64,000 bases of DNA from Halovenus rubra (GTDB taxonomy: Archaea > Halobacteriota > Halobacteria > Halobacteriales > Haloarculaceae): contig NZ_JAODIY010000001.1 in NCBI RefSeq assembly GCF_026586665.1, positions 372,001-436,000 of the forward strand, in the 5' to 3' direction. This document shows positions 1,712-46,134 of the stretch, piece by piece. The position numbers were made by a program, and so were the translations under genes. The notes beneath the pieces are model-generated. The model did not search any database. It worked only from the letters and a program-made list of their open reading frames with translations, and was not told where the DNA came from. Position 1 is the first letter of the stretch; each line of letters begins with the position of its first letter.

Positions 1712-2875
1712 CTACGCTTTGGGATTTGTCTCGTGAGTGTCGACAAACTGTTCGAGACGGTTGAGGGCTTCTTTGAGGTCGTCCATCCCTGTTGCGTAGG
1801 ACACTCTGAGATGACCGTTTCCACCCTCACCGAAAGCAGTCCCGGGGACGGCTGCGACGTTTACCTCTTCGATAAGTGCCTCGGCGAACGCCTCGGCATC
1901 GTCCCACGGCGCGGCGGGGAATGCGTAGAACGCGCCGCTGGCGCGGAAACAGTCGATACCCATCTCCTCGAACCGCGAAAGCACGAGGTTCCGTCGCCGG
2001 TCGTACTGGGTGACCATTTCATCGACCACGCCATCACAGGAGGCAAGCCCCTCTAGGGCTGCGTACTGGGCCGTTGTCGGAGCCGAGAGCATCGTATACT
2101 GGTGAACCCGATTCATTGCTGTCGTCGCTTCGGCAGGTGCAAGGGCGTACCCGAGCCGAAGACCGGTCATCGCGTAGGCCTTGGAAAAGCCGTTGATGAC
2201 GATTGTCCGTTCACGCATCCCCGGTAGCGTCGCAATCGAGGTATGCTCGTGTTCGTAGCTGAGTTCCGCGTAGATTTCATCCGAGACGACAGTGAGGTCG
2301 TGCTCCCGGGCGAACGCAGCAACCTCACCGAGTTCCTCGCGAGTCATCGTTGCGCCAGTCGGGTTGTTCGGATAACACATCACTAGCATCTCTGCCTCGT
2401 CAGCCCCAGCGTCGGCGAGGACCTCGCGAGTGAGTTTGAACTTGTCCTCTCGGCGCGTTGGGACTGGACAGACTTCGCCGCCGGCGAACTGTACGCCCGG
2501 AACATACGAGACATAACAGGGTTGAGCGACTGCGACGGTATCACCCGGATCGACAAACGCACGGAAGGCAAGGTCGACGGCCTCGCTTGCCCCTGCGGTG
2601 ACGAGCACTTCCTCATCTGGGTCGTACGAGAGGTCATAGCGCTGGTCGACCGTCTCTCCAATTGCCTCTCGAAGGTCACGTCGTCCTCGGTTGGCTGTGT
2701 ACGACGTTTTTCCCTGCTCCAGAGAAGCGATTGCTGCTTCGCGCGTTGCCCACGGTGCTGTGAAGTCGGGTTCGCCAACGCCCAGCGAGATGATATCGTC
2801 TTGCTCTTCTGCGAGTTCGAAAAAGCGCCGGATTCCCGATGGAGGAACCCGTTCGACACGGTTGGCCGGTTTCAT
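1712..2875 (-). CDS. Class I/II pyridoxal-phosphate aminotransferase
   Basis: A 387-residue fold-type I PLP enzyme that probably transaminates an aromatic or acidic amino acid with 2-oxoglutarate in the cytoplasm. Visible landmarks: LGVGEPDF near residue 31, YPNNPTG at about 168-174 (PLP-contacting Asn), VSDEIYAELS at about 197-206 with the PLP-ring Asp, and NGFSKAYAMTGLRLGY with the Schiff-base Lys at about 232. Full length for the AspC/AAT-I family. Its ATG overlaps the stop of the upstream Lrp-type regulator by four bases (ATGA), so the two are co-transcribed and probably functionally linked. The exact substrate cannot be told from sequence. Confidence 0.93.
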   Translation of the reverse strand: MKPANRVERVPPSGIRRFFELAEEQDDIISLGVGEPDFTAPWATREAAIASLEQGKTSYTANRGRRDLREAIGETVDQRYDLSYDPDEEVLVTAGASEAVDLAFRAFVDPGDTVAVAQPCYVSYVPGVQFAGGEVCPVPTRREDKFKLTREVLADAGADEAEMLVMCYPNNPTGATMTREELGEVAAFAREHDLTVVSDEIYAELSYEHEHTSIATLPGMRERTIVINGFSKAYAMTGLRLGYALAPAEATTAMNRVHQYTMLSAPTTAQYAALEGLASCDGVVDEMVTQYDRRRNLVLSRFEEMGIDCFRASGAFYAFPAAPWDDAEAFAEALIEEVNVAAVPGTAFGEGGNGHLRVSYATGMDDLKEALNRLEQFVDTHETNPKA

Positions 2876-3357
2876 GGTGATATTGAAAGGCGGTCATCGT
2901 CGTGACCGTCCCCGAGCAGTATCCCCTGTTCTTTGTACGAATCCATCACGTAGTGCGTGATTGTCTGTGTTATTTCCGGAACTGGGGCGACTTTGTCGCT
3001 AATAAACTGCGAGACCTCACGCATCGATCCTGCTTCGACTTCCATCAGAAAGTCGAAATCACCGCTCACGAGATGCAAAGAGTCGACCATCTCGAATTTG
3101 GCGAGTCGACTCGCGATATCCTCATATCCTGTCTCGCGGTCAAGAGTAACGTTCAACTGGACGGCTGCCCGGACTACCTCTTCATCGAGTTTTCGCCTGT
3201 CGAGTATAGCCTGGTAACCCTTGATGACGCCCTCGTCTTCGAGTTGTTCAATGACGGCCTCAACCTCGTCAGTGTCCATATCTAGCTGCCGTGCGATATC
3301 TTCCGGGCTGTTGCGTGCGCTCTTTCGGAGCACCGCCAGCACATCCTCCTGGCTCAT
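2872..3357 (-). CDS. Lrp/AsnC family transcriptional regulator
   Basis: About 161 residues: an N-terminal HTH (ARNSPEDIARQLDMDTDEVEAV, a winged-helix Lrp signature read in pieces) followed by an RAM/ligand-binding domain with the VSGDFDFLMEVEA stretch typical of the family. I chose the ATG at 3357; the longer reading begins with a TTG at 3375 and adds six non-conserved residues. Translationally coupled to the aminotransferase, so it likely senses an amino acid and controls that operon. Confidence 0.9.
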   Translation of the reverse strand: MSQEDVLAVLRKSARNSPEDIARQLDMDTDEVEAVIEQLEDEGVIKGYQAILDRRKLDEEVVRAAVQLNVTLDRETGYEDIASRLAKFEMVDSLHLVSGDFDFLMEVEAGSMREVSQFISDKVAPVPEITQTITHYVMDSYKEQGILLGDGHDDDRLSISP

Positions 3358-9969: not shown

Positions 9970-11997
9970 TTATGCGTCTCGCTGGTAGCGATTCCGGATG
10001 ATAATTGCTGTCGCATTCATTAACAGGAGTACAATCAGCAACGTGACAACGCCGGCCGCGACGGCTCCATACCTGAAGCCGGACTTGACCGAAGATGACC
10101 AGACGTAGATTTGCATCGGCATCGCTGTTGTCGTCTCAAGAATACCGCTGGGTGGGTTGAAAATCGAGTTTGGAAATCCAATCATAATGAGCGGCGCAGT
10201 CTCGCCGATTGCCCGCCCGAGCGAGAGAATCATGCCAGTAAGAATACCCTGAATCGCCTCGGGCAACACGACGTTTTTCGTTGTCTGCCACCGCGTTGCA
10301 CCCATCGCGTAGGACCCGTTTCGCATGCTATCAGGAACGGCCCGGATTGCTTCCTGTGCGGAGACAATTGAAATCGGGAGAATAAGCAGGGTGAGAGTGA
10401 GTGCTCCGGTAATAGCGGTCCCGAGGCCGAAACCGAGGAGATTCGCGAACAGTCCAAGCCCGAGCAGGCCGTAAACAACCGATGGAACTGCTGCGAGGTT
10501 GGCGATATTAATCTGGAGAATCCGTGTGACTTTCCCGCCGAGGCCGGTGTCCGGTGCGTACTCTTCGAGGAAGACTGCTGTCCCGACACCGAGCACAAAC
10601 GAAAACACTGCGACAAGCGAAATGAGAAGGACTGACCCGACGATTGCCGGATAGAAGCCTGCCAGTTCGGGCGTCGCAGACGGGCCGGCCGTGAGGAACG
10701 ACCAGTTAAGCCAGATATCCGGCGGTGTAACGCCCCAGATGTCGACGATAACTGCACCGATGATGACGCCACCAGCGAGCAATACCGGTAATACAACTCC
10801 GATGACACCATTCTGCCGTTTAGCAACCTGCCGAAGGAAACTAAGCGTCGGAATAGAGACTGCTAGGAGGAACAAAACTGCCGTTTTGGGTGAGATACCA
10901 ACCACTGTCGCGGCTTGACTGCCAACCACCGTGACGAACAAGATAATAACTCCCGTCTGGCGGGCAGCCTTGCGTGACACTTGCAGTGCGGTCAGCCCCG
11001 CACTCGCAAGCGTAAGTGGAATCACAAGACTCCAGACATAGATGCCCCAGTCTCCGGGGTAATCCGCGTAGTTCGTAAGAATTAGTTCTGGTGCGAAACC
11101 AGCGACGCCGATTCCAATACTTGCTGTGACCCCCACGACGAGAGCGAGGATGCCACCAATCTGTGCCTGTCGAGTTCTGCGCCGACGTTCGATGGCGCGC
11201 TTGACTACGATTGCTGCTGGTACTGAAAGCACTGCGAGGTAGATTGTAACTGCACTAATAGTCCCTTCTATCCAGTCTGCGGCGTACGGCAAGAACGAAT
11301 AATCAAGTGGGATTCTAATCGTGATGAACGGGTCATCAGGCTTCACAGCGAGGATTGAAGCCGCAATCAAACCTGGTGCGAAAAACACCGAGACGATTGA
11401 TTTTGGCTGTCGTCGGCTGTACGCCAGCATCCCGACTGCGGGAAGGAACCCGAGGGTGTACGCCCAGAACCAAGCCTGTGGTTCGAAGACAACAAACAGG
11501 ATAAGGAACATGAAGCCAAGCGCAGTTCCGCCGACGAGTCGGCCAAGCAAGCCGAACCCGACGCGACCGACCGGCTCGCGACTGCCGGCAAACCCGACGT
11601 ATGCCGTCACTGGAACAACGACTGTGAACAGATAGATAAGCTGCCACGTGAGGCCAGGAACCGGCCTAATGAACGCCTCGACTCCTATGTATGTCCCTGC
11701 GATGGCTGGGAGGCCACCGCCGAGTGCAAGCACGGCCTGTTTCGTGAGCTTTGGGTCGTTTGCACTGTAAAGACAAAAGCCAATGAACGGAACGACGAGC
11801 GTGATGAAGTAGGTAAGTAGCCACTCTGGACTAGCACTGGACAGATTGAACGCATCGACGACAACGTAGACGAGCAACACTGCCAGCATGAGGATACCGA
11901 ACACCGAGGCCCCAAGCGATAGCTTCTCAAATATCTTCCCCCTGATTCTGCTAACCTGTCCGAAATTCGTCTGCTCGTGTTCGTGTTCGACTCCCAT
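9970..11997 (-). CDS. pstA: Phosphate ABC transporter permease PstA, long form
   Basis: 675 residues. The last about 270 form the usual PstA permease, with the ABC-contact EAA-like loop around AIRAVPDSMRNGSYAMGATRW and IGETAPLIMIGFPN. About 400 extra residues with roughly ten hydrophobic segments precede it. Haloarchaeal PstA proteins are often longer than bacterial ones, so the extension is probably native, but its role is unknown. It starts one base after the pstC stop, so translation is likely coupled. The partner ATPase PstB is not encoded in this operon. Confidence 0.9.
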   Translation of the reverse strand: MGVEHEHEQTNFGQVSRIRGKIFEKLSLGASVFGILMLAVLLVYVVVDAFNLSSASPEWLLTYFITLVVPFIGFCLYSANDPKLTKQAVLALGGGLPAIAGTYIGVEAFIRPVPGLTWQLIYLFTVVVPVTAYVGFAGSREPVGRVGFGLLGRLVGGTALGFMFLILFVVFEPQAWFWAYTLGFLPAVGMLAYSRRQPKSIVSVFFAPGLIAASILAVKPDDPFITIRIPLDYSFLPYAADWIEGTISAVTIYLAVLSVPAAIVVKRAIERRRRTRQAQIGGILALVVGVTASIGIGVAGFAPELILTNYADYPGDWGIYVWSLVIPLTLASAGLTALQVSRKAARQTGVIILFVTVVGSQAATVVGISPKTAVLFLLAVSIPTLSFLRQVAKRQNGVIGVVLPVLLAGGVIIGAVIVDIWGVTPPDIWLNWSFLTAGPSATPELAGFYPAIVGSVLLISLVAVFSFVLGVGTAVFLEEYAPDTGLGGKVTRILQINIANLAAVPSVVYGLLGLGLFANLLGFGLGTAITGALTLTLLILPISIVSAQEAIRAVPDSMRNGSYAMGATRWQTTKNVVLPEAIQGILTGMILSLGRAIGETAPLIMIGFPNSIFNPPSGILETTTAMPMQIYVWSSSVKSGFRYGAVAAGVVTLLIVLLLMNATAIIIRNRYQRDA

Positions 11998-11998
11998 G

Positions 11999-12973
11999 TT
12001 AGTACTCCTCCCTGTAGCGTTCCGCGATGATATCGCTGATAATGTTCATAATCAGTGTGGTAATAAACAAGAACAGTCCAAGAGCGAACATTGCATCATA
12101 CGGAATCGTTCCGCCCACAAGGTCGCCGCCGACAATGTTGACCATCGCCACGGTGATTGTCATCCCTTGTTCAAGTAACACATCGCCAGGGTGAATGAAC
12201 GGAATGTTGAACAACCCCTCTCGAACTGTCGGAAGCGTCGCGTTTGACCCCATCGCGACGACGACAATCATCGTCTCACCAATGGCTCGCGAAATGGCCA
12301 GGATGTACGACGAGACGATGCCGGAAATTGACGCTGGAACCACAACCCCTGTCGATACTTCGAACTTCGTTGCACCGAGTCCGTACCCGGCTTGTCGAAG
12401 CTCGTCCGGAACGGCACTCATTGCATCTTCACTGATTGATGAAACCATCGGGATGACCATGATACCGACCATTAGTGACGCCGAAAGCGCGTTGAACGTG
12501 CTCATACTGGGGAACAGCGTCGCTTGTAGTGCCGGTGTGATATACACGAGCGCGAAGTATCCGTAGACAACGGTCGGGATACCTGCGAGAATCTCTAGCA
12601 TCGGTTTGAGAATTGCCCGTTTGCGCGTACTCGCGTACTCGCTCAGATAGATTGCGGTCAGCGTGCCAATTGGCAGTGCAATGAACGCTGACGTGATTGT
12701 TACCACAATGGTCCCGAATAGCAACGGAACGATACCGAACAACAACTCGCCACCTGCTGGGTTGGGACTCCATTCAAGTCCGGTCAGGAAATCGACTATC
12801 GGGTACTCTTGGACGAATGAAATCGTGTCGTGTAGTAGTGTAAAGGCAATCGCGACTGTTGTCAGGAGTGTCACGGCTGCACAGACCAGCATGAACCCAC
12901 CGTAGGTCCCCTCTTTAATTCGCTCGGTGCCCCGCGAACGCTGAAGATTCAGATCAGACTGCGAGTCACTCAC
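11999..12973 (-). CDS. pstC: Phosphate ABC transporter permease PstC
   Basis: 324 residues, about six membrane segments, with the family's periplasm-facing GLEWSPN stretch and the ABC-ATPase contact loop DAMSAVPDELRQAGYGLGATKFE, then SRAIGETMIVVVAMG. Full length. Sits between pstS (137-base gap) and pstA (1-base gap). Confidence 0.95.
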   Translation of the reverse strand: MSDSQSDLNLQRSRGTERIKEGTYGGFMLVCAAVTLLTTVAIAFTLLHDTISFVQEYPIVDFLTGLEWSPNPAGGELLFGIVPLLFGTIVVTITSAFIALPIGTLTAIYLSEYASTRKRAILKPMLEILAGIPTVVYGYFALVYITPALQATLFPSMSTFNALSASLMVGIMVIPMVSSISEDAMSAVPDELRQAGYGLGATKFEVSTGVVVPASISGIVSSYILAISRAIGETMIVVVAMGSNATLPTVREGLFNIPFIHPGDVLLEQGMTITVAMVNIVGGDLVGGTIPYDAMFALGLFLFITTLIMNIISDIIAERYREEY

Positions 12974-42145: not shown

Positions 42146-42751
42146 ATGGACGAAAAGACGGAGGAACTCCGTGACATCTTTCTCGATGTTGCCGACGACG
42201 AGACAGTAACGGAGTCACAGGAGGCTTCTCGCGGGTCGGTCGCTGATACCGGCGAGGTTGATGAGGAGCGACTCGTCGACACTATCGAGAAGATGGATGA
42301 GCGGTTTGGATTCACTCCCGACCTCTCAGTTGCGGACCGCGCCCAACTTGTCGAAGCGTTCTATGATGGAGATGACGACGAGGCGATAGGCGAAAGGCTC
42401 TCGGTCACGCCGGCAACTGTTTTCGAGGCCCGAATGGCGCTTCACCTCGTCCGCGATGCGGACCCAGTCGGTACCGAAATCGAAGAACAACAGCTCAAAC
42501 GCCTCCGTGAGCGGACGACCGAGGAGACGGCACAGCTACTCGAAGAGACTGAGTTTGCACAGACAGATATCAAACGAGCAACTGCGGTCATCGACGCTAC
42601 TGACCGGGGACGACGGGCCAGCCACCGCTTTCGGACAACCTTCGAGGAGTGTCTCACTGACATCGACCTGAGTACACAACTTGCGGCAGAAACACAACGT
42701 GACGGTCTCGACGACGCGACCGAGGATGCTGAGGTTGACGTTGAGTTCTAA
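42146..42751 (+). CDS. Conditioned medium-induced protein 4 homologue
   Basis: About 201 residues from ATG 42146. The opening MDEKTEELRDIFLDV and the closing acidic tail match, from memory, the haloarchaeal Cmi4 family, first noted as induced by conditioned medium (possible quorum response) in Natronococcus. A middle segment (FYDGDDDEAIGERLSVTPATVFEARM) looks like an HTH-type fold. Molecular role unknown. Confidence 0.85.
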   Translation: MDEKTEELRDIFLDVADDETVTESQEASRGSVADTGEVDEERLVDTIEKMDERFGFTPDLSVADRAQLVEAFYDGDDDEAIGERLSVTPATVFEARMALHLVRDADPVGTEIEEQQLKRLRERTTEETAQLLEETEFAQTDIKRATAVIDATDRGRRASHRFRTTFEECLTDIDLSTQLAAETQRDGLDDATEDAEVDVEF

Positions 42752-42859: not shown

Positions 42860-43429
42860 ATGGATATATACGAACAACTCGACGGGACGACGAACGTGCT
42901 GCTCGCAGAGCCACCGATGGCACAGGGCCGAGATGTCTGTACCTCGTTGCTGGCCGGACAGCAGTCAAATCCAAGTGTATTGTTTGTCACATATACGCGC
43001 TCGCCAGCGGCTTGTCTCAATCAACTTGACGGCCACGACCACAGTGAGAATGTTGGCGTCATCACTGTTGGCGACAACGCCGCTAGCATTGACGGTGTCG
43101 TCACGGAATCAGTTTCAACCGCTAGCGACTTGACTGGACTTGGAATCGCTATCGGCCAGTTCCTCTCGCGGTGGGATGACTCGGTGTACGTCTGTTTTGA
43201 CTCGGTTACATCGATGCTCCAGTACGTTGACGTTACAACCGCCTACGAGTTCTTGCACGCAATCACTGGTCAGATACATGCTGCCGGTGCAAGTTCACAC
43301 TTCCACATCGACCCGAACGCACATGACGACCAAGATGTCGCCTCCATCACGTCGCTTTTCGACGCGAAAGTTTCGCTTGAAGGTGAAACAACCGTTCGCA
43401 CGCGAGAGCTCTTGGAACCAACAGACTAG
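42860..43429 (+). CDS. RecA/KaiC-superfamily-like protein lacking a Walker A (DUF7504-like)
   Basis: About 189 residues. The overall plan is a degenerate KaiC/RadA core: TTNVLLAEPPMAQGRDVC where the P-loop would be (no GxxxxGK[ST]), VLFVTYTRSP as the second strand, WDDSVYVCFDSVTSML as a Walker-B-like strand, and HFHIDPNAHDDQDVASITSLFD at the end. From memory this is DUF7504, whose members replace ATP binding and often sit with signalling genes. First gene of a five-gene run. Confidence 0.75.
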   Translation: MDIYEQLDGTTNVLLAEPPMAQGRDVCTSLLAGQQSNPSVLFVTYTRSPAACLNQLDGHDHSENVGVITVGDNAASIDGVVTESVSTASDLTGLGIAIGQFLSRWDDSVYVCFDSVTSMLQYVDVTTAYEFLHAITGQIHAAGASSHFHIDPNAHDDQDVASITSLFDAKVSLEGETTVRTRELLEPTD

Positions 43430-43507
43430 CGTTTTTCGTGCGTATCCGAGTAACGACCTGACGATATATAGATACGTTTACGTGAGTGACAGCCACCATC
43501 ATCTGGT

Positions 43508-43846
43508 GTGTTGCTCGTCATTGCTTACTCCCGAGAAGCACGGCAAACGCTCCGAAACATTTGCCGAGGCCACGAAGAGAGTGTTGTCCGGCGATTCGGG
43601 CGGGTCGTGTTGCTTGAGGAGACCGAGTTTGGTGCGTTTCTGGCAACCCGTCTCCGTGTGAAACACGGCGGCGACATTCAGGTCGAACGGACTGCTCCGT
43701 TCAACGAGTTCGACGCTGTTCGCCCGGCTGTCAGAGAGGCAGCGACCGACTACGAGTCGCGCGAGACGCCATCTCTGCCATACAAGCAATTTCGCTCAGA
43801 AACCGACCACCCCACGTCAGCCGAGATGAAAGAGCAGTCGTTATGA
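43508..43846 (+). CDS. Small conserved haloarchaeal protein (DUF7855-like)
   Basis: 112 residues from a GTG at 43508. Alpha/beta: VLLVIAYSREARQTLRNICR then VVLLEETEFGAFLATRL, and a polar C terminus. From memory it corresponds to DUF7855. It overlaps the next gene by four bases, so the operon is tight from here on. Function unknown. Confidence 0.72.
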   Translation: MLLVIAYSREARQTLRNICRGHEESVVRRFGRVVLLEETEFGAFLATRLRVKHGGDIQVERTAPFNEFDAVRPAVREAATDYESRETPSLPYKQFRSETDHPTSAEMKEQSL

Positions 43847-44700
43847 TTTGCCGGGTTGGCGATGTTGTCCGGTGTGGGGAGGTAGTATCAATCGAGCCAG
43901 AAGTTACGGCAACGACGGTGGCTGACGCGGTTCGTACAGAGAGTACTGACGCCGACGACCGAATCGAAGTCTCCTGTCCTACCCCATCGCTGTTACATGA
44001 GGCTGTCGGCTGTCTCTACCCCGGAATGGGAGTTCAAACAAAGACAGCACTCGCACGAGCGGCACGGACACGCGGAATGACGACACCATACGACGAAGAC
44101 CTAGAGGCAGCCCGAGCAAAACTCACAGACGTGTGTGTCGAGAGCATATCACTCAGACAGCATCGAGAGGTAATGGCTGGGACAGAGGAAACCGTCGAGC
44201 AAGCGCGAGTGCGCGCTGCGGAGGCACGCGGTCGAGTCCGGGAGTGCGAAGAAAACGGGCTGGCGACCGACGAAGCGAACTCTCGACTAGCGGCTGCGCT
44301 TCAGTACCTTTCTGAGGCCGAAACAGCGGCCATCGCGGCTGAGCAAGCGTACACCAGCGCACGCGAGCAGCGCCGCGCTCAACTAGACAATCGGGAGCAA
44401 CGATTTCGCCTGCAGGACCGGGTAGCGAACTACGAACGGGAAGCACACGCCTATCTTGTGGACCAGCTCCGTGATGAGTTCAGCGAGACACTCACGACAC
44501 TCTCAGAGATGATGGCCGACCAGCTCAGCGATGCGCTATCGACTCCAATAAGGTCTCCGTTCGATGTGGAGCCGGTTCCGGCGGCGCTTGCGGTTGGTCA
44601 TCTTGGGAATCTATCCGCACCGGTGGTGCTCGCTATTGACTGGTTTGAATCCCCATCTAAGGCAAGCGAGTGGCTCGACACCTCTGTTATCCACATTTAA
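43843..44700 (+). CDS. Coiled-coil protein of the MinD-linked operon (DUF7856-like)
   Basis: 285 residues. The N-terminal about 100 form a small alpha/beta domain (MICRVGDVVRCGEVV, LHEAVGCLYPGMGVQTKTALARAARTRG in two parts). Residues about 115-210 are a long coiled coil rich in Ala, Glu and Arg (VEQARVRAAEARGRVRECEE). A folded C-terminal domain contains VVLAIDWFESP. The coiled coil could drive oligomerisation or span a distance. Starts inside the previous gene; 25 bases before the next. Confidence 0.72.
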   Translation: MICRVGDVVRCGEVVSIEPEVTATTVADAVRTESTDADDRIEVSCPTPSLLHEAVGCLYPGMGVQTKTALARAARTRGMTTPYDEDLEAARAKLTDVCVESISLRQHREVMAGTEETVEQARVRAAEARGRVRECEENGLATDEANSRLAAALQYLSEAETAAIAAEQAYTSAREQRRAQLDNREQRFRLQDRVANYEREAHAYLVDQLRDEFSETLTTLSEMMADQLSDALSTPIRSPFDVEPVPAALAVGHLGNLSAPVVLAIDWFESPSKASEWLDTSVIHI

Positions 44701-44725
44701 GTACGGTGCCGAGACCAGACTGCCT

Positions 44726-45463
44726 ATGGCGACGCTCGACTGGCAACTCGAAGACACCGGAGCAGTGACACTTGTCGAACTCTCGGTGCGTAGTGACCGG
44801 ACCAAGCAGGTCCGAATCGAGAGCCGGCTCCAGCCGGTCTGGCCCCCACGACAACAGGGGGTTCCTGCTCGCGGCTGGAACGACAGCTCATTCGAGGGAA
44901 CGGTCCACAGTGGTGAGCCGCTGGTCGTCGGATACGCAACCCCTGCTTCGCCCGTAGAGCCGCCTGCGGAGATAACAGACACGGGCAGTCCTACACAGGA
45001 GCCGACAGTAACACCCGAAACTATCGTCCGGACGCTCGGCGATTCTCGGCCACCTCGGGAGACGCTTTCGAAACCAGAACAAGCCAATAGTCTCGAAGAA
45101 TCTGGCACTGTTCCGATGTCGGAGCGACCACACGTTGACCGCAGAGTGGCGACTGCGGGCACTGGGACAACACAAGACAGCGTAACACCGACAACGGATA
45201 CCGACACAGACGGACCAATAGAGTGGTTCGAAGCAGTCGAAAAGCGCGTCGCGACGACCGAACAACTCGCTGAGACAACTGACGCCGACGAGATACGGAC
45301 CGCGGTAGATGAGGCCGGCGGCATCGGCGCTGTCAGAGAGCTACAGGCCCAGCTGGATGCCGACAGACAACACATTCAGGAGGTCCAACGCCGGTCGGAA
45401 GCGCTCGCCGACCAGCTATCGGCTGTCGAACTGCCGTTATCAACACTCGAGCGTGTGGTATGA
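44726..45463 (+). CDS. Beta-domain plus coiled-coil protein of the MinD-linked operon (DUF7857-like)
   Basis: About 245 residues from ATG 44726; an open frame reaching back to 44564 lies within the previous gene. The N-terminal about 80 are beta-rich (LDWQLEDTGAVTLVELSVRS, with WPPRQQGVPARGW), followed by a long disordered Thr/Pro/Ser linker and a C-terminal coiled coil (IGAVRELQAQLDADRQHIQEV). It overlaps the MinD gene by four bases. Confidence 0.72.
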   Translation: MATLDWQLEDTGAVTLVELSVRSDRTKQVRIESRLQPVWPPRQQGVPARGWNDSSFEGTVHSGEPLVVGYATPASPVEPPAEITDTGSPTQEPTVTPETIVRTLGDSRPPRETLSKPEQANSLEESGTVPMSERPHVDRRVATAGTGTTQDSVTPTTDTDTDGPIEWFEAVEKRVATTEQLAETTDADEIRTAVDEAGGIGAVRELQAQLDADRQHIQEVQRRSEALADQLSAVELPLSTLERVV

Positions 45464-46134
45464 AACTCGCCGTCACTGGAGGAAAAGGTGGTGTCGGTAA
45501 GTCGACTGTCGCGTACAACCTCGGCGCGGAGTTGGACGCGGTCGTTGTCGATGGCGACCTCGGCATGGCAGACTTACCACAACGGCACGGTCCCGACCTA
45601 CACGATGTGCTTGCTGGCCGGGCAACGCCGCTTGAAGCCGTCTCGGAAGACGGCTCTGTGGCGTTGTTGCCTTGTGGTCGTTCGCTTGCGGGAGCCCGGA
45701 AGGCTGACCAGACGGCGCTTGTCGAGACGGTCGCAACCGTTGAGCGTCACTACGGCACCGTCGTTATTGATTCGCCAGCAGGACTACGGGCCGATGTGGG
45801 ACTGGCGTTGCTCGCATCTGATGCATGTGTGCTGGTGACGCGGCCAACCAGACCAGCAGTCGCTGACAGCCTACGAGCACGAGAACTCGCTCGGGCTGTC
45901 GAGACACCGCTTGCACGGATTGTTCTTAATCGGGTTGAATCACAGCAAACAGCTACCGACACCCGCGTTCGACAGCTGGCAGCGACACTTGAGGGACCCG
46001 TTACACAGATACCTGACTCGGCGGTCGTCCGTCGCGCACAGCGGTCAGGTGTCCCGGTTCGTGCTGTCGACGCTGACGCATGTGCAACGGCAGCCTTTCA
46101 AACGCTTGCAAACCAGGTTGCGTCGCTCTTTTGA
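45460..46134 (+). CDS. MinD/ParA-family ATPase
   Basis: 224 residues with the deviant Walker A GGKGGVGKST at 7-16 (both signature Lys), switch I VVDGDLGMAD, and switch II VIDSPAGL. Shorter than MinD, with no obvious membrane-targeting amphipathic helix at the C terminus (ending ANQVASLF). Such ATPases position or partition large assemblies. Last gene of the operon that starts with the degenerate RecA-like protein. Confidence 0.92.
   Translation: MKLAVTGGKGGVGKSTVAYNLGAELDAVVVDGDLGMADLPQRHGPDLHDVLAGRATPLEAVSEDGSVALLPCGRSLAGARKADQTALVETVATVERHYGTVVIDSPAGLRADVGLALLASDACVLVTRPTRPAVADSLRARELARAVETPLARIVLNRVESQQTATDTRVRQLAATLEGPVTQIPDSAVVRRAQRSGVPVRAVDADACATAAFQTLANQVASLF

Follow-up and report, generated by a model that had tools for sequence, protein, structure and literature searches.

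In the present study, we analysed a stretch of 64,000 nt of Halovenus rubra (contig NZ_JAODIY010000001.1; hereafter the window), which carries at positions 42860-46134 of the plus strand a cassette built of two modules: one encodes DUF7855 and DUF7856, the other DUF7857 and a MinD/ParA-type ATPase (Table 1). Judging from the sequences, we consider it very likely that the ATPase and DUF7857 form a functional pair, in which DUF7857 would be the dedicated partner. That DUF7857 also bridges the ATPase to a unit of DUF7855 and DUF7856 is a more tentative proposal, to which we assign a probability of about 0.45. An initial annotation of this stretch had described five same-strand genes with two four-base overlaps and a 25-base gap, and the open reading frames and coordinates confirm this, the junctions in gene order being a gap of 78 bases, an overlap of 4, a gap of 25 and again an overlap of 4. 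The domain sketches given at that time also turned out to be real, as seen from Pfam and NCBIfam matches, alignments, and structure models of DUF7855 and DUF7856. None of the families DUF7504, DUF7855, DUF7856 and DUF7857 is mentioned by name in the literature searched.

The two modules emerge from a survey of 145 genomes of the class Halobacteria that are at least 90% complete, in which the MinD group of the window was delimited at a clear score gap (219 versus 152 bits). DUF7855 is present in 93 of these genomes, DUF7856 in 89, DUF7857 in 105 and the MinD group in 102, and all four occur together in 81. DUF7857 and MinD lie at most 5 kb apart in all 101 genomes that hold both, and their genes overlap, by four bases with few exceptions, in 93 of 95 loci. 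The same distance separates DUF7855 and DUF7856 in 88 of 89 genomes, the remaining one having them split over two contigs; these genes overlap in 67 of 89 loci, and DUF7856 was never found without DUF7855. Gene order and overlaps are kept across dozens of genera, which is far beyond chance, and across the phylum DUF7855 was found only in the taxonomic order of the window (33 of 247 genomes). Of the five-gene unit of the initial annotation, four genes stand as two conserved modules, whereas the fifth, DUF7504, is optional, 41 of 80 named loci having it. One could argue that these are unrelated housekeeping genes, kept together only by slow change of gene order near the helicase gene mcm, as genes close to mcm and tfb generally keep their short-range order throughout the class and two promoters are predicted within the cassette. 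However, DUF7857 and MinD are still adjacent in all 27 genomes that have DUF7857 away from mcm, the genes are joined by translational overlaps, and in Halovenus the four cassette genes remain together though separated from mcm. We deem this explanation improbable.

By sequence, DUF7857 has a beta-rich domain, which a variable linker connects to a coiled-coil tail, and its architecture varies with the genes that accompany it. Where both DUF7856 and MinD are present, the beta domain is followed by a linker bearing VVRxLGDPxPPRDAV and usually by a coiled-coil tail. Proteins found with MinD but without DUF7856 (family code f7 and genus codes g2 and g4, for which the names 'Natrialbaceae-type' and 'Halobacterium-type' used here are inferred) comprise about 120 residues, end after an LxxWxPPxxVL segment and are tail-less. 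Conversely, with DUF7856 but without MinD (Natronomonas, the L111 bin and g10), the beta domain runs almost directly onto the tail. Scored by weight matrix, the LGDxxPPRDAV motif occurs in 70 of the 72 DUF7857 accompanied by MinD and DUF7856, and is missing in all eight Natronomonas-type proteins without MinD, which do retain the tail. The tail, in turn, is missing in 18 of 19 DUF7857 from genomes without DUF7856. These patterns suggest that presence of the motif follows that of MinD, and presence of the tail that of DUF7856, and DUF7857 looks like a modular adaptor. The Natronomonas-type loci (L099, L103, L111, L113 and L140-L143) have kept DUF7855-DUF7856 and a motif-less DUF7857, and have lost the window-type MinD.

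The ATPase itself carries the deviant Walker A motif noticed earlier: G8 K9 G10 G11 V12 G13 K14 S15 T16, including the signature lysine, is invariant in 19 orthologues, as are D31 and D33 together with K9 and K14. It matches the superfamily profiles CbiA (42.9 bits) and ParA (43.7 bits) above the Pfam cut-offs, and TIGR01969 with 130.6 bits, under the curated cut-off of 201.75. A C-terminal membrane-targeting amphipathic helix is absent by inspection, most orthologues stopping within about 10 residues past the core with unconserved ends, and no MinE or MinC family matched among the cassette proteins in Pfam or NCBIfam. As the curated MinD score, the membrane tail and a MinE or MinC partner are all lacking, the window MinD is not a member of a MinCDE system. 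The nearest solved structures, with which it has a common core, are the MinDs of Archaeoglobus and Pyrococcus (1hyq, 1g3q); unlike these, the window protein, of 224 residues, falls below the TIGR01969 cut-off and has D38 in place of the N that follows their second conserved Asp.

Which of the known haloarchaeal MinDs does it correspond to? The orthologue group sits between mcm and tfb, although the window's own copy has left mcm, and in Haloferax volcanii mcm is HVO_0220 (PMC3972481), MinD1 is HVO_0225 (PMC11588486) and TFB is HVO_0226 (PMC7714728). Since this numbering mirrors the order mcm ... MinD / tfb, the window MinD is, by gene order alone, very probably the orthologue of MinD1, a protein for which no partner has been reported and whose function has not been described; no clear MinE-equivalent partner is known for haloarchaeal MinDs (PMC11621097). 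MinD2-HVO_0596 and MinD4 of H. volcanii are likewise haloarchaeal MinDs, MinD2 having a conserved gene next to it and MinD4 an extended tail, and they affect motility and shape, whereas the window MinD belongs to a group of its own, set off from its paralogues by a clear gap in score. Its partner DUF7857 also belongs to another family than the KaiC-like neighbours of other MinD-like genes. It could nevertheless be that the system positions motility, chemosensory or division structures in the manner of MinD2 and MinD4, which would agree with membership of the MinD family and with DUF7857-MinD often lying beside a ParA-DUF7125 fusion in Natrialbaceae-type genomes. However, swimming of the quadruple MinD mutant of H. 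volcanii equals that of the minD2/minD4 double mutant and its FtsZ is placed normally, MinD1 adding nothing detectable (PMC11621097), and the window MinD has no C-terminal membrane-targeting segment, which makes such a role very doubtful. Of the positioning system with MinD and a coiled-coil adaptor that the initial annotation had envisaged, the tie between MinD and a coiled-coil partner is supported, with DUF7857 adjoining MinD wherever both occur, but positioning gains no support, as loss of MinD1 adds no known defect (PMC11588486, PMC11621097). MinD-MinE, McdA-McdB and PomZ-PomXY, known in general as ATPases with a dedicated partner, offer only a works-like parallel; unlike in those systems, the cassette partners belong to haloarchaeal families whose function has not been described, and they give no MinE or MinC match.

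In the most common haloarchaeal arrangement, the genes are ordered mcm - DUF7854 - [DUF7504] - DUF7855 - DUF7856 - DUF7857 - MinD, followed by tfb on the opposite strand. This raises the question of whether MinD1, DUF7857, DUF7856 and DUF7855 act on the replication machinery, in the placement of the chromosome or replisome. In 86 of 93 genomes DUF7855 is no more than 8 kb from the 3' end of mcm, the median being 698 bases, and of the 80 named loci 63 have mcm on the same strand and 65 have DUF7854. The link does need caution, because the far side of the cassette is conserved too, with tfb in 59 of 80 loci as well as DUF7858, a P-loop gene and HIT, and plain ancestral gene order may explain the proximity of mcm. 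With tfb and the other flanking genes about equally conserved, we downgraded adjacency to mcm as proof of a role in replication. Moreover, Halovenus and most Natrialbaceae-type genomes carry cassette genes away from mcm, and the mutants grow normally (PMC11588486). We consider action on the replisome unlikely as an explanation in its own right.

For the other module, structure models were available. DUF7855 is strongly conserved (65% mean column identity over 63 sequences), and its model, with a pLDDT of 96.7, shows beta-alpha-beta-beta-alpha-beta followed by C-terminal helices (DSSP). This predicted model fits a ferredoxin-like fold, with matches across residues 1-64 reaching Z 7.2. As scores of Z 5.6-7.2 are shared by many unrelated ferredoxin-like proteins, a function based on the fold was dropped; the predicted fold as such reveals none, and Foldseek searches with the model never gave E below 0.04. 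The model of DUF7856 (pLDDT 95.3, pTM 0.83) has a small alpha/beta head made from both termini, and helices 105-137 and 143-223 form a long antiparallel hairpin. Its structural matches were not significant: the best Foldseek E was 0.012 at a low TM, and the VIA rows mostly span the helical hairpin; in Pfam and NCBIfam no ABC or SMC head profile matched above cut-off. Kinship with SMC or Rad50 was set aside as doubtful, the matches being weak and driven by the hairpin. By sequence, no solved relative was convincing for DUF7855 or DUF7856.

How, then, could the four proteins work together? In the mechanism that we favour, the beta domain of DUF7857 and its LGDxxPPRDAV segment would contact the ATP-bound MinD1 dimer, and the coiled-coil tail would contact the helical hairpin of DUF7856, which would carry DUF7855. 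Binding and hydrolysis of ATP by MinD1 may then switch the assembly or the place of the DUF7855/DUF7856 unit. If MinD1 acts on a surface at all, the nucleoid or a protein scaffold would be likelier than the membrane, because MinD1 is without a membrane-targeting tail. As cargo, the chromosome or replisome would be the first, weak candidate, given the usual place of the cassette beside mcm.

Several observations weigh against the bridging mechanism and the correlations behind it. The modules DUF7855-DUF7856 and DUF7857-MinD part company in several genomes, 17 rows have DUF7856 and a DUF7857 without a scoring tail, the DUF7857 of one genome (G164, locus L138) has a tail without DUF7856, and that of another (L091) carries the motif without MinD. 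On the trees, the correlation of the motif and that of the tail each have one or two independent changes behind them, and as the traits change in step only once or twice, the pattern is suggestive but not statistical proof. Furthermore, H. volcanii from which all four MinDs are deleted shows no division or growth defect (PMC11588486), so that the MinD1 system is dispensable there under the conditions tested. We must also take into account that the short LxxWxPP form scores poorly with the weight matrix (9 of 23 above 10 bits), which is why homology of the short- and long-form motifs rests on position and shape. Locus L091 belongs to Haloquadratum walsbyi J07HQW2, and no MinD was found beside its motif-bearing DUF7857; the MinD of L117 is cut by the contig end.

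The modular arrangement is also reflected in promoter-like elements. A TATA-like hexamer lies at -35 to -26 before the start codon of DUF7855 in 58 of the 71 orthologues found, and before that of DUF7857 in 89 of 92, and almost never precedes DUF7856 or MinD. This is the position expected of the TATA box for leaderless haloarchaeal transcripts. Gene bodies served as the background for the comparison, and while raw enrichment is partly common to any intergenic DNA, the sharp position is specific. We infer two bicistronic units, each with its own predicted promoter, between which read-through is possible. Because such boxes precede DUF7855 and DUF7857 and none is placed before DUF7856 or MinD, the single operon proposed in the initial annotation becomes unlikely.

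The optional member DUF7504 lacks a P-loop, as had been noticed in the window: no GK[ST] occurs in 21 aligned orthologues. The suggestion that this RecA-like protein serves as a signal input is weakened by its patchy presence among the named loci and by the six members of the family in the window's genome. However, MinD-type ATPases beside P-loop-less RecA-like proteins recur in haloarchaea. A fusion of a ParA-type ATPase with the KaiC-like DUF7125 often adjoins the relocated DUF7857-MinD in Natrialbaceae-type genomes, and the fusion gene of L120 matches 13 of 19 other loci examined; in the window's genome the ParA and DUF7125 parts are separate neighbouring genes (L166:1798-2484 and 2544-3182). 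This recurrence mildly supports the earlier idea of some importance of the RecA-like protein.

In the window's genome mcm-DUF7854 lies on a different contig, an arrangement shared by the loci named Halovenus, where Cmi4 directly precedes DUF7504. Haloferax and its relatives have Cmi4 immediately 5' of mcm and the cassette immediately 3'. Since Cmi4 flanks mcm there, its adjacency in the window is best read as the trace of a rearrangement in which mcm-DUF7854 moved away. The functional meaning once attached to this neighbour loses its footing, Cmi4 and the cassette both flanking mcm elsewhere, and Cmi4 as a signal input was set aside. A defence system was rejected, as there was no PADLOC match, and a viral origin was set aside with PHROGs matches limited to DUF7504 and MinD.

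Other features were observed around mcm and tfb. In the window's own genome a further MinD-like protein of 317 aa (L162:4379-5332, minus strand) is encoded about 700 bases from mcm on the opposite strand. Several Haloferax have a putative lipoprotein gene without Pfam match between mcm and DUF7854 (L087:5357-6478, also L070, L076, L090 and L116). The mcm of L112 (4364-6613) contains intein domains (LAGLIDADG, intein splicing), and many of the surveyed genomes may likewise have inteins in mcm, judging from open frames of 1200-2600 codons. Past tfb, DUF7858 and a ParA/BcsQ-like P-loop protein (L087:10982-11536 and 11645-12412) form a conserved block in most haloarchaea.

Table 1. Features of the cassette in the window, its neighbour, and ParA-DUF7125 fusions at other loci (positions of the latter are within the locus named).
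Feature	Position	Strand	Remarks
Cmi4-like neighbour	42146..42751	+	outside cassette; 5' of mcm in Haloferax and relatives
DUF7504 protein, P-loop-less, with RecA/KaiC-like fold	42860..43429	+	189 aa; PF24336 E 2.3e-34 (Pfam); optional cassette member
TTTACG, TATA-box-like element	43477..43482	+	end 25 bases before DUF7855 start
DUF7855	43508..43846	+	112 aa, GTG start; PF25253 E 1.3e-52 (Pfam)
DUF7856	43843..44700	+	285 aa; PF25254 E 8.7e-63 (Pfam)
TTTAAG, TATA-box-like element	44696..44701	+	end 24 bases before DUF7857 start
DUF7857, candidate adaptor with a beta domain, the motif IVRTLGDSRPPRETL and a coiled-coil tail	44726..45463	+	245 aa; PF25256 E 2.7e-26 (Pfam), alignment
MinD/ParA-type ATPase, very probable MinD1 orthologue by synteny	45460..46134	+	224 aa; TIGR01969 E 5.2e-38 (NCBIfam)
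ParA-DUF7125 fusions	L120:2529-3833, L122:248-1711, L137:2363-3790		beside relocated DUF7857-MinD

At its most far-reaching, the proposal would be a kind of ParA/MinD system that is new among archaea: a modular adaptor, whose ATPase-linked motif and coiled-coil tail are separable, would tether a haloarchaea-specific DUF7855/DUF7856 complex to the replisome or the nucleoid, and the chromosome copies, of which these cells have many, would be placed or partitioned in this way; we regard this as a long shot. Haloarchaeal MinDs have been studied for motility and shape, and a MinD without known function here gains a concrete candidate partner, DUF7857, together with a probable contact segment. As such, four protein families that most of an archaeal class possesses become testable as one system, in an organism that is genetically easy to work with.

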